Of a stretch of DNA of 64,000 nucleotides, positions 33,461 to 36,694 are shown in pieces. How positions within the stretch are numbered: position 1 is the stretch's first letter; each line of letters starts with the position of its first letter. The DNA lies in contig NZ_JAJFZL010000001.1 of NCBI RefSeq assembly GCF_020733635.1, positions 3,844,001 to 3,908,000 of the forward strand, read 5' to 3'. The notes under the pieces are model-generated. The model was not told the DNA's origin. It ran no database searches and worked only from the letters and a program-made list of their open reading frames with translations. The stretch comes from Nocardia spumae. Lineage in GTDB: Bacteria; Actinomycetota; Actinomycetes; Mycobacteriales; Mycobacteriaceae. The position numbers and the translations under genes are program-made.

Positions 33461-33479
33461 GGCCGGTCAGTGACCGGCC
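33461..33479. terminator. Hairpin between cvnD and mtnC
   Basis: GGCCGGTCA (33461-33469) and TGACCGGCC (33471-33479) form a near-continuous inverted repeat that overlaps the mtnC stop codon at the meeting point of two convergent operons. Confidence 0.55.
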
Positions 33480-34162
33480 GCGGCGAGATCCAGTTCGCCG
33501 AAGCCGGAGATCCAGCGATGCGGCGGCCGGGGTGAGTTCGGTTCGCCCGCTCGGGTGACGCCGACCGCCTGCCAGCCCGCCGCCACCGCCGCGTCGAGTT
33601 CATCGGGATGGTCGGACAGGAACAGGATCTCGTGCGCGGGCACCCCGATCGCCGCGGCGATCCGCCGATAGGACTCGGCTTCCCGTTTGGCGCCGGCGTT
33701 GGCGAGGTCGAACCACGCGCCGATCAGCGACGCCAGCTCTCCCCCGCGCGCATAGGCGAACCAGTCCCGCTGATTGCGCACCGATCCCGACGAGTAGACG
33801 TACAGCGCGATTCCGGCGCGGTGCCAGGCGCGGAGCGCGTCGGGCGCGTCGGGAAAGAATTCGCCGGACAGCGCGCCGTCGCGAAATCCCTCGGCGCAGA
33901 TCAATCCCTGCGCGGCCTTGAGCGGGGCGGCTTTGACGTCCGAGTTCAGCCAGCCGCGCAGAATATCGGCCACTTCGCCGGTATCGGCGTCCGGACGTCG
34001 CGCCAGTTCCCGGGTCTGCTCGATCACCAGGTCCGCGGCACCACCGCGATGGTCGGCCAGCCACTGCGGCAATCGACGACGGGTGTAGCCGTACAGGTCC
34101 TCCCGCACCGCGCTGGTGGGGCTGGTGGTGCCCTCGATATCGACGACGACGGCGCTGATCAC
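33467..34162 (-). CDS. mtnC: Enolase-phosphatase MtnC (acireductone synthase)
   Basis: 231 aa from the GTG at 34162 (AGGAG site upstream); the open frame upstream of it lies within a repeat. HAD-superfamily enzyme that enolises and dephosphorylates 2,3-diketo-5-methylthiopentyl-1-phosphate. HAD motif I is DIEGTTSP, in the variant Asp-x-Glu form normal for MtnC; motif II is YSSGSVRNQR and motif III/IV is FLSDHPDELDAA. Third gene of the methionine-salvage operon, with GTG overlapping the stop of a repeat ORF (GTGA at 34159-34162). Confidence 0.92.
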   Translation of the reverse strand: MISAVVVDIEGTTSPTSAVREDLYGYTRRRLPQWLADHRGGAADLVIEQTRELARRPDADTGEVADILRGWLNSDVKAAPLKAAQGLICAEGFRDGALSGEFFPDAPDALRAWHRAGIALYVYSSGSVRNQRDWFAYARGGELASLIGAWFDLANAGAKREAESYRRIAAAIGVPAHEILFLSDHPDELDAAVAAGWQAVGVTRAGEPNSPRPPHRWISGFGELDLAAAGH

Positions 34163-34443
34163 GGTGTGCTCCTGCGGAATAGGGTGGTGCTCGGTGCCGC
34201 TGCCGCCTCCGGGCCTGGTCCGCTCATGCTGGGTCCATCGGCATGAGCGGGGCCCTGCGTGGTTACGCACGCTGCCGCCTCCGGGCCTGGTCCTCTCATG
34301 CTGGGTCCATCGGCATCAGCGGGGCCCTGCGTGGTTACGCACGCTGCCGCCTCCGGGCCTGGTCCGCTCATGCTGGGTCCATCGGCATGAGCGGGGCCCT
34401 GCGTGGTTACGCACGCTGCCGCCTCCGGGCCTGGTCCTCTCAT
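34159..34443 (-). CDS. Repeat-derived ORF between mtnD and mtnC, 94 aa
   Basis: This frame begins at an ATG overlapping the mtnD stop (34440-34443, ATGA) and ends in a TGA overlapping the mtnC start (34159-34162, GTGA). It encodes three full 24-residue copies starting M(R/S)GPGPEAAACVTTQGPA and a fourth, truncated copy, then 12 other residues. There is no strong ribosome site, so translation would be by coupling from mtnD. It could be a real repetitive peptide or a spacer that maintains coupling. One of three open frames through the repeat; this one is chosen for its end overlaps. Confidence 0.45.
   Translation of the reverse strand: MRGPGPEAAACVTTQGPAHADGPSMSGPGPEAAACVTTQGPADADGPSMRGPGPEAAACVTTQGPAHADGPSMSGPGPEAAAAPSTTLFRRSTP
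34198..34443. repeat. 72-bp tandem repeat (3 full units plus partial) in the mtn operon
   Basis: The motif TCATGCTGGGTCCATCGGC starts at 34224, 34296 and 34368, exactly 72 bp apart, with a truncated copy from 34440. Units differ at only a few positions (for example CATGAG versus CATCAG, and GTCCGCTCATG versus GTCCTCTCATG), alternating in a way that suggests a two-unit block was duplicated. Length is a multiple of three, so any copy number keeps the frame. A VNTR-like locus, likely variable between strains. Confidence 0.9.
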
Positions 34444-35012
34444 GCCGCGACGAGCTCGTCCAGGCTCGGGAACCGCTGGGCGATGGCGTCACCGGTGAAA
34501 TCGCCGACCCACCCATCGGCCTCCTCGAAGAACCGGATGGCCACGAAATCCGGGCGGGTACCCATATCGAACCAGTGCCGGGTCCCCGCCGGGACCGACA
34601 CCAGATCACCGCCCTCGCACACCACCGCCACGACTTCCGGTTCCAGATGCAGATAGAAGCATCCGCGCCCGGACACGAAGAACCGCACCTCGTCCTCGGC
34701 GTGCCGGTGTTCGGAGAGGAATTTCTCCCGCGCCGCGCGGGCCTGTGCGGGCCACTGCGGATCGGTGTCGTCGGGATGTAGCCGGGCCAGGTCGATATGG
34801 CGGTAGCGGCCGTCGCCGTTGAGCTCGTCGATCCGATCCCGGTAGTCGTCGAGGATGTCCTGCGTCGAGATCGCGGCGGTGACCACCCGGGCGGGCCAGC
34901 GGTCGAAAACGATACCGCGCGTAGCGAGTTCGGCGGCGATCCGCTCGGGATCGCCGGTGTGCAGGCGCACCTGCGCGGGATCGGAATCAGCGGCGATGTG
35001 CAACAGTGTCAT
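34440..35012 (-). CDS. mtnD: Acireductone dioxygenase (MtnD)
   Basis: 190 aa cupin. Metal-binding HRHAEDE (the HxHxxxxE motif) and the later histidine in GTRHWFDMG. With Fe(II) it yields the keto acid precursor of methionine plus formate; with Ni(II) an off-pathway reaction makes carbon monoxide. Which metal is used here cannot be read from the sequence. Its ATG overlaps the mtnAB stop (ATGA at 35009-35012). Confidence 0.94.
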   Translation of the reverse strand: MTLLHIAADSDPAQVRLHTGDPERIAAELATRGIVFDRWPARVVTAAISTQDILDDYRDRIDELNGDGRYRHIDLARLHPDDTDPQWPAQARAAREKFLSEHRHAEDEVRFFVSGRGCFYLHLEPEVVAVVCEGGDLVSVPAGTRHWFDMGTRPDFVAIRFFEEADGWVGDFTGDAIAQRFPSLDELVAA

Positions 35013-36664
35013 TGCGTGCGCTCCTCGGGAAGATCGGATGAGATGTCACGGCGTCCGGTGAGCGACACCAGTTCGCACAGGGCTTCCAGGCATTCCGCGC
35101 GGTCACGGGCCTGCGCGAGGCCCGCGCCCCAGGCGGTGATGCCGTGTCCCGCGATGAACAGCACCGGCGGCGCGTCCGGATGTGCGCGCAGGTACCGCTC
35201 GATCTCCGCGCCGATGCGCGGCACATCGGCGTGGTTGGCGAAGACCGGGATGTCGATGGCGCCGGTCGCGCCCAGCCCCTTGATCAGTTCGAATCCGGTG
35301 AATCGCAGCCGATCCGCGGCATCGACGGAGGTGGCCGTCGCATGCGGTGGGTGCACGTGCACCACCGCACCCGCGTCGGTGGCGCGGTAGATCGCGGTGT
35401 GGATGGCGGTCTCCGCGGAGGGACACCGTTGCCCGGCTACCGATTCGGAGTCCTCGACCCGGACCCGCACCATATCCGCCGGGGTCAGCTCCCCCTTGGA
35501 CAAACCGCTGCCGGTGACCAGCGCGGTGCGCGCAGTCCGCCCGTCCGCCGCGGACGGGGCCTCGACAACGGAGATATTGCCCGCGGTACCGGGCATCCAC
35601 CCGCGGATGTAGAGCGCCCGCGCGATGGCCGCGATCTCGGCGCCGGCCGGATCGCCCGGATCCGGCGCGCTGCTCGCGGGCCCGGACTCGGCGACCGGTC
35701 CGTTCTCGGTGACCACGGCGGTCACCAATTCCGGTGGGGTGACATCGAAGGCCGGATTGAACACCGCGGTGTCGACCGGTGCGTTCGCATGTCCGCCGAG
35801 GTGGGTCACCTCGGCCGCGGATCGCTGTTCGACGACGATCTCGGCGCCGGTGCCGGTCGCGGGATCACGCGTCGATTCCGGCGCCACGACGATGAAGGGG
35901 ATGCCGTGGTGACGTGCGGCCAGCGCCAGACCGTAGGTGCCGATCTTGTTGGCCACCGATCCGTCGGCGGTGATCCGGTCCGCACCGACGATCACGCAGT
36001 CGACCTGCCCGGACGCCATCGCCCACGCCGCGGCCGAGTCGATCGTCAGCCGATGCGGGATACCCGCCTCGGCCAGTTCCCAGGTGGTCAGTCGCGCGCC
36101 CTGTAACAACGGGCGCGTCTCGTCGACCAGCACGCTGTCGATCGCGCCGCGCGCGTGCAGCACGCCCAACGCGCCGACCGCGGTGCCGACCGCGGTGGTG
36201 GCCAGGCGGCCGGTATTGCAGTGGGTGAGCATCCGCAACGGCCGCGCCGGGCACAGCCGCTGGACCAGGTCGGCGGCGTGTTCGGCGGCGGCGCGATTGA
36301 CGCGGCCGTCCTCGACGAGCATCGCCTGCGCCTCGGCGAGCACCGCCGCCGCCCCCTCGGGCAGTTTCGCCAGTGCCCGCCGCACCCCCCAGGACAGATT
36401 GACCGCGGTCGGGCGCGCGGCCTCGATGCGAGTCGCCTCGGTCTCGACCCGGGCCGGATCCCCCGGGTGAGCCAACGCGGCCAGTGCGACACCGAACGCC
36501 CCCGACACCCCGATCGCCGGAGCGCCGCGCACGGCCAGGGTCGAGATCGCCTCGATGACCTGGTCGACCGTGGTGAGCCGCAGCTCACGCAGTTCGTGCG
36601 GCAGGGCGCGCTGATCGATCGTCACCACGGCGCCGTCGACCCACGTGATCGAACTCTCACCCAT
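35009..36664 (-). CDS. mtnA-mtnB: MtnA-MtnB fusion: methylthioribose-1-phosphate isomerase / methylthioribulose-1-phosphate dehydratase
   Basis: 551 aa from ATG 36664. Residues 1 to about 330 are the isomerase MtnA (GAPAIGV, catalytic Cys149 in THCNTG, Asp229 in GADRIT, NKIGTYGLA). From about 343 comes the class-II-aldolase-like dehydratase MtnB (IARALYIRGWMPGTAGNIS, metal-site HVHPPHAT, and a later AGHGITAWG). Usually these are two genes; here one chain does two consecutive steps, joined by an Ala/Pro/Gly-rich linker. The upstream start frame (36685) is possible. First gene of the salvage operon; no MTA nucleosidase/phosphorylase or kinase gene is nearby. Confidence 0.93.
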   Translation of the reverse strand: MGESSITWVDGAVVTIDQRALPHELRELRLTTVDQVIEAISTLAVRGAPAIGVSGAFGVALAALAHPGDPARVETEATRIEAARPTAVNLSWGVRRALAKLPEGAAAVLAEAQAMLVEDGRVNRAAAEHAADLVQRLCPARPLRMLTHCNTGRLATTAVGTAVGALGVLHARGAIDSVLVDETRPLLQGARLTTWELAEAGIPHRLTIDSAAAWAMASGQVDCVIVGADRITADGSVANKIGTYGLALAARHHGIPFIVVAPESTRDPATGTGAEIVVEQRSAAEVTHLGGHANAPVDTAVFNPAFDVTPPELVTAVVTENGPVAESGPASSAPDPGDPAGAEIAAIARALYIRGWMPGTAGNISVVEAPSAADGRTARTALVTGSGLSKGELTPADMVRVRVEDSESVAGQRCPSAETAIHTAIYRATDAGAVVHVHPPHATATSVDAADRLRFTGFELIKGLGATGAIDIPVFANHADVPRIGAEIERYLRAHPDAPPVLFIAGHGITAWGAGLAQARDRAECLEALCELVSLTGRRDISSDLPEERTQ

Positions 36665-36694
36665 TGCGCGCACAAACCTCACCACTCGATCGGA

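Follow-up and report, generated by a model that had tools for sequence, protein, structure and literature searches.

A tandem array of a dispersed Nocardia hairpin element between mtnD and mtnC

The stretch of Nocardia spumae DNA analysed here (the window, 64,000 nt) carries on its reverse strand the methionine-salvage genes mtnD and mtnC, separated by a short tandem array (Table 1). No NCBIfam family is assigned to the mtnD product. Upstream of mtnD, an MtnA-type isomerase (TIGR00512) and an MtnB-type dehydratase (TIGR03328) are read in one frame (window 35009-36685, reverse strand), which is an apparent mtnA-mtnB gene fusion.

Table 1. Features of the mtnD-mtnC junction, in window coordinates.
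Feature	Position	Strand	Description
mtnD (acireductone dioxygenase, ARD family)	34440..35012	-	ORF; Pfam PF03079, E 7.7e-27
Linker frame	34159..34443	-	94 codons, from ATGA (mtnD stop) to GTGA (mtnC start)
Repeat unit 1	34372..34443	-	72 bp, numbered from ATG
Repeat unit 2	34300..34371	-	72 bp; positions 6 and 55 differ from units 1 and 3
Repeat unit 3	34228..34299	-	72 bp, exactly equal to unit 1
Partial unit 4	34198..34227	-	30 nt, ends inside the loop after GGCAGCG
Unique sequence from partial unit to mtnC	34163..34197	-	35 nt, contains the Shine-Dalgarno-like CAGGAG
mtnC (acireductone synthase)	33467..34162	-	TIGR01691, 185.5 bits (cut-off 128.1)

Tandem Repeats Finder returns a period of 72 with 3.4 copies and 97% matches at window 34198-34445, and the three 72-bp units and one partial unit claimed in an earlier sequence-only reading are present between the two genes. 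That reading had also proposed growth by duplication of a two-unit (144-bp) block. This fits the array and is its simplest history, since units 1 and 3 are the same and the partial unit equals unit 2 over all 30 shared nucleotides. Cut ends like that of the partial unit are also found at other arrays. An assembly artefact is unlikely because orthologous arrays recur in other assemblies. Folded as RNA, the whole array does no better than shuffled sequence (z-score of -1.4, with 23 of 200 shuffles folding equally well), which speaks against its being one selected RNA structure. Elsewhere in the window, positions 870-1001 hold a near-perfect direct duplication (69 bp, 1.9 copies, 96%).

The linker frame predicted to span the junction was confirmed as open over its full 94 codons. 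The mtnD stop TGA is part of the ATGA at the first bases of the array and is overlapped by the linker ATG; the linker TGA in turn overlaps the mtnC start in GTGA. The two start codons lie 281 bp apart, a distance of 2 mod 3. The linker frame may be translated, and it matches no NCBIfam or Pfam family (E up to 0.001). The likely start of mtnC is GTG, and the 3' end of CAGGAG, a candidate Shine-Dalgarno site judging from its sequence and place, lies six bases 5' of it. This GTG, with the CAGGAG outside the repeat, is probably the start used here. The array might still influence mtnC; since the CAGGAG lies outside the repeat, the dependence of mtnC on the linker is not certain.

A BLAST search of the 7.07-Mb genome with the array as query found 41 places (E up to 10), the weakest of which are likely due to chance. 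A covariance model made from 32 units gave 69 matches in the same genome at E up to 10; the best 60 (E up to 0.04) were kept, the other nine were dropped, and those kept form 44 loci, nine of them arrays. A loose fuzzy search returned mostly noise and a stricter cut was used instead. Within the genus, each of the 148 genomes searched holds at least one model match (E up to 0.001), with from one up to at least 31 matches per genome. A family-wide sample, run under stricter filters that may lose weak matches, gave matches in 16 of 201 genomes, spread over 2 of the 31 genera: fifteen of these genomes belong to Nocardia and one to a second genus. The latter (G163, genus g15; 23 scored, 66% complete) is the sole match-bearing genome outside Nocardia in this sample. 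The exact core pattern occurs in at least 120 stretches of named genomes, and all 80 among the matches listed are from Nocardia. A plasmid collection yielded one Nocardia farcinica record (2.66 Mb) with 18 places carrying the core, and viral contigs yielded no exact core match. Rfam gave no match in the window at gathering scores; below threshold, only microRNA models matched, at the array. The repeat family is thus near genus-restricted. These counts support the suggestion of a separate dispersed family in this genus, and the search of the genome and its relatives that had been called for shows the repeat far beyond the mtn locus. No described Nocardia repeat family of this kind was found among the papers listed in searches of open-licence PMC text.

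Read 5' to 3' in the mtn sense, the element consists of a left arm, a short bulge, a stem, a loop, the second stem strand, a right arm and a tail. The left arm (4-16 nt) is locus-specific and the right arm is its complement. The inner stem is composed mostly of G-C pairs (many copies have about five), and the conserved 25-nt loop reads GGAGGCGGCAGCnnGCGTAACCACG. The tail resembles GAnAGGACACAG or CATCGGACACAG. In unit 1 of the mtn array the left arm, CGGCATGAG, starts immediately ahead of the unit, which continues with the remainder of this arm, stem GGCCC, loop GGAGGCGGCAGCGTGCGTAACCACG, stem GGGCC, a right arm ending in CTCATGCCG and the tail ATGGACCCAGC.

The consensus fold of a MAFFT alignment recovered the inner stem and missed the outer arms, because arms from different loci do not align; the pairing of own arms was therefore compared with that of mismatched arms. 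Outer arms pair with their own partners at -17.5 kcal/mol and with the arms of other loci at -11.9 kcal/mol. None of 20,000 permutations paired as well, either for the 44 N. spumae loci or for 81 array-first copies taken from 80 Nocardia stretches (the 80 listed of at least 120). Among these 81 copies, left-arm 12-mers are distinct in 79. The inner stem behaves likewise in the N. spumae genome (-9.6 for own and -8.0 for mismatched strands, 0 of 20,000 permutations). The arm-pairing signal is strong in the mean and not locus by locus: the own right arm ranks 1-4 of 44 at 22 of the 44 loci, and 7 or lower at the other 22. At the orthologue of one locus, L029, in genome G085 (L259), both pairing arms are kept and the conserved core is gone.

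The genomic contexts of the 44 loci were assigned by a heuristic gene caller. Fourteen loci lie between genes that run in the element direction and six between genes that run against it, nine lie in divergent and four in convergent spacers; inside genes, seven are sense and four antisense. The expected confinement to ATGA junctions was not borne out, as the caller placed 11 of the 44 loci inside genes and 19 in spacers that are divergent, convergent or directed against the element. One locus called divergent, L023, is nevertheless placed by alignment within the N-terminus of a KshA-like protein (KshA_C domain). This insertion and another near the N-terminus of a Bcp peroxiredoxin-like protein (assigned by eye) are in frame. 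The KshA-like N-terminus is empty in three of four relatives and the Bcp-like one in all four. Including one further gene, in-frame in-gene insertions were seen at L023, L036 and L014, most of the compared relatives being empty. Copies at L024, L030 and L040 lie, as judged by eye, in genes resembling those of non-ribosomal peptide synthetases (NRPS), two of the three being antisense.

Orthologous junctions were then compared among relatives. A match to mtnD was present in 124 of 150 genomes; 30 mtnD loci were fetched and 29 of them read by script. The repeat is absent from the mtnD-mtnC junction in 27 of the 29 script-read loci, and the thirtieth (L095) shows none either. Three units and a partial unit lie at this junction in N. 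spumae, and one unit and a partial unit in genome G093. In 24 of the 27 empty junctions, the NTGA that overlaps the mtnD stop opens a frame continuous with the body of mtnC, which makes this NTGA the most likely site of the native start. The insert leaves this native frame open into mtnC in G093, but not in the window. The 25 other N. spumae loci compared with one to four relatives each were read from alignments, and at 23 of them the element is missing from one or more relatives. The remaining cases are L032, in a clpP-like leader, where all five genomes compared carry it, and L038, where the relatives have a half element or a decayed element. Half elements persist in some relatives at L011 and L013, as expected if arrays had collapsed by recombination. 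Copy number, which had been predicted to vary between strains, differs between species: the mtn junction holds 0, 1 or 3 full units, and an orthologous junction of the L022 type holds 0, 0, 1, 1, 1, 2, 2, 3 and 4 units in nine genomes. The empty junctions in relatives make the family look mobile, and mobility would account for the polymorphism in presence.

Unlike copies elsewhere, which are polymorphic, the clpP-like leader copy (L032 and L260-L274, assigned by eye) is of high identity across a clade of 12 genomes, and a few more genomes carry a diverged version; this copy may have been recruited. Its retention in this clade, the conserved loop, the covariation of both stems, outer arms included, and the agreement of element direction with the genes at 21 loci against 10 where it opposes them (in-gene or co-directional spacers) would all suit a regulatory RNA motif, with the 25-nt loop on its covarying stem binding a protein or RNA. 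We consider this unlikely, since copies are also found antisense and in convergent spacers, no Rfam model matches at gathering scores and most of the examined sites have an empty counterpart in some relative.

The arrangement seen at mtn recurs in a sub-class of operon-junction copies. In a first sample of 125 loci (81 from named Nocardia and the 44 of N. spumae, mtn array included), the left arm contains the upstream stop as NTGA at 29 loci, for 28 of which a downstream start was found. An exact double overlap, in which the frame that starts at the first NTG closes exactly on the TGA within the following NTGA, is present at 15 of these 28; L359 is a sixteenth by eye. Of the 28 start-to-start distances, 19 are 2 mod 3 (P 2e-4), five are 0 and four are 1. 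A second sample of 30 fetched loci, picked by a 26-nt seed only and examined after the first, has the upstream stop at 23, a start at 22 and the exact double overlap at 14 of these 22. Here 16 of 22 distances are 2 mod 3 (P 1.8e-4), four are 0 and two are 1; at some of the junctions with a distance of 0 mod 3, the frame runs on into the downstream gene. Both P values overstate independence, because orthologous loci occur within and between the samples (by eye L422/L323, L434/L349 and L432/L436/L368) and the loci are members of one sub-family. The MIRU-like stop/start design that had been read from the mtn array thus extends to this sub-class.

Solitary exact junction copies mostly measure 74 bp from start to start. 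Tandem spacing is divisible by three (75 bp) in 12 of 16 junction arrays (P 8e-4), the rest having 74, 74, 73 and 73 bp. The proposal that any number of units keeps coupling is therefore valid for the mtn array and, within the sub-class, for most arrays. It does not hold as a property of the whole family, since units of 73, 74, 77 and 79 bp occur elsewhere; the unit lengths of the N. spumae arrays are 72, 73, 74, 75, 77 and 79 bp. Finally, a Shine-Dalgarno-like motif is present in the 3' tail of 12 of 15 junction copies compared with 24 of 60 others (P 0.008), and the anti-Shine-Dalgarno duplex energy is -6.9 in junction copies compared with -5.6 in others (P 0.03), in a comparison whose classes were partly set by eye and which omits 6 of 81 copies.

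We consider it probable that the mtn array arose by tandem amplification of a small Nocardia hairpin element, non-autonomous and apparently mobile, which had inserted where mtnD and mtnC natively overlap at ATGA, in a way that preserves the chain of stops and starts. A solitary element of the junction form would bring an open frame of about 25 codons with NTGA on both flanks. Ribosomes finishing the upstream gene could reinitiate on the element frame, terminate at the NTGA that follows and reinitiate once more on the downstream gene; such a hand-over would make junction insertions tolerable, and units of 72 or 75 bp could be added with the chain intact. The Shine-Dalgarno-like tail, where present, as it often is, would supply the start signal for the downstream gene, so that with NTGA at both ends this signal would be kept and the chain left unbroken. 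Several observations count against this explanation: most N. spumae loci are not ATGA junctions, among the 44 the exact double overlap was found at the mtn array only, the second sample includes junctions with distances of 0 and 1 mod 3, and neither a mobilising gene (in the search for PF01797) nor a transposition event was seen. A founder of 74 bp, moreover, would give distances of 2 mod 3 by descent, without selection, and this too counts against it.

The same anatomy would follow if a neutral hairpin repeat inserted widely and the survivors were those insertions that spared the expression of their neighbours, at ATGA/NTGA junctions or in frame within genes. Coupling would then be a condition of survival with no function, and the difference would lie in purpose alone. 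The many contexts of the element, including the in-frame insertions near the KshA-like and Bcp-like N-termini, and its polymorphic presence agree with this, and we give it an even chance of being correct. By itself, however, it leaves unexplained both the enrichment of Shine-Dalgarno-like tails at junctions and the 75-bp tandem spacing.

MIRUs, as described in a passage of PMC12548453, appear mobile, insert at start codons and carry an internal frame coupled at -4 nt; excerpts of PMC4213456 give units of 77 and 53 bp at senX3-regX3, and excerpts of PMC3635867 report that MIRU copy number varies. Within the compass of these excerpts, the Nocardia element is alike in its short units, its start-codon sites with a frame coupled at -4 nt and its variable copy number. 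The 4-nt overlap at start codons is a feature of the mtn array and the junction sub-class (15 of 28 and 14 of 22 loci) and not of the whole family, while dispersal and tandem arrangement are common to both systems (44 loci, nine arrays and 0-4 units at one junction for the Nocardia element). MIRUs are found in mycobacteria, whereas for the exact core of the Nocardia element 80 of the 80 matches listed are in Nocardia; compared by model search, its sequence is matched only in Nocardia and one further genus of those sampled. It further differs in having locus-specific covarying arms round a conserved loop, and in its many copies outside ATGA junctions, some of them in frame in genes. The similar junction design would be explained if the element were a true MIRU homologue common to mycobacteria, but this is very improbable given that the model is silent in 29 of the 31 sampled genera of the family, among which we assume Mycobacterium to be. 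By analogy, the family appears to be the MIRU design in another sequence, at many operon junctions. If so, the strategy of hiding an insertion in overlapping stop and start codons by means of a linker frame arose twice, the second time in a related genus and with a different sequence. Two general questions would then be testable: whether ribosome hand-over across a chain of tiny frames is what allows repeats of this kind to persist in operons, and by what route a short element whose arms are site-specific spreads with no transposase in sight. The arrays could also act as typing markers for Nocardia.

Rickettsia palindromic elements (RPE) are palindromic repeats, some of which lie in frame within protein genes. 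The Nocardia element shares this trait at the KshA-like and Bcp-like N-termini, and differs in that its arms vary by locus and that it has a junction sub-class with NTGA at both ends. With REP/REPIN sequences and their RAYT transposases the likeness is in the many dispersed short palindromes per genome; the Nocardia element stands apart in its direct tandem arrays of 72-79 bp, its unconserved arms and the lack of a Y1 transposase in the N. spumae genome. Dispersed palindromic hairpins in many copies are what a REP-type palindrome mobilised by a RAYT/TnpA-REP (Y1) transposase would leave. We rejected this origin and give it almost no credence, because PF01797 is absent from the N. spumae genome and from five of the six other element-rich genomes tried. 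It is present in 3 of 14 genomes, two of the three being element-poor (classes set by match counts, which reach at least 31 per genome), and across these 14 genomes no link between PF01797 and element copy number is visible. No actinobacterial name occurs in PMC3733652, on REP/RAYT.

Transposition was not seen in these comparisons, and the search for Y1 (PF01797) identified no mobilising gene. Empty sites in relatives nevertheless bear on the origin of the arms. At about nine loci judged by eye (mtn, L009 with mismatches, L010, L012, L015, L016, L022, L033 and L037), a relative's empty site already contains at least six bases of the left arm. These pre-existing sequences are the mtnD stop/start, other stop codons and antisense lookalikes of the -10 box. 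At these loci the right arm is largely the reverse complement of the left arm, and the empty site is without it. Copying of the arms from the target was rejected as a universal rule, since at nine others (both copies at L018, and L020, L021, L023, L027, L028, L029 and L036) the left arm is mostly absent from the empty site and was mostly brought by the insert, and since at L037 the own right arm differs by one base from a match to the native left arm. The mixed origins fit arm-guided insertion with later correction of the palindrome. Tentatively, the arms may be taken from or matched to each target, the element spreading without a transposase by template switching during replication; the arm would provide microhomology with fold-back, and repeated switching at the hairpin would give tandem units. 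We regard this mechanism as possible and rather doubtful. The left arm occurs as a downstream direct repeat at 8 of 81 copies, compared with 3 of 81 for the arm of another locus, which is too weak a signal. At L010, L012, L015, L016, L027, L037 and L038, the left arm on the other strand resembles by eye the -10 box (TANNNT) of the neighbouring gene, and the right arm then repeats this box in the element direction.
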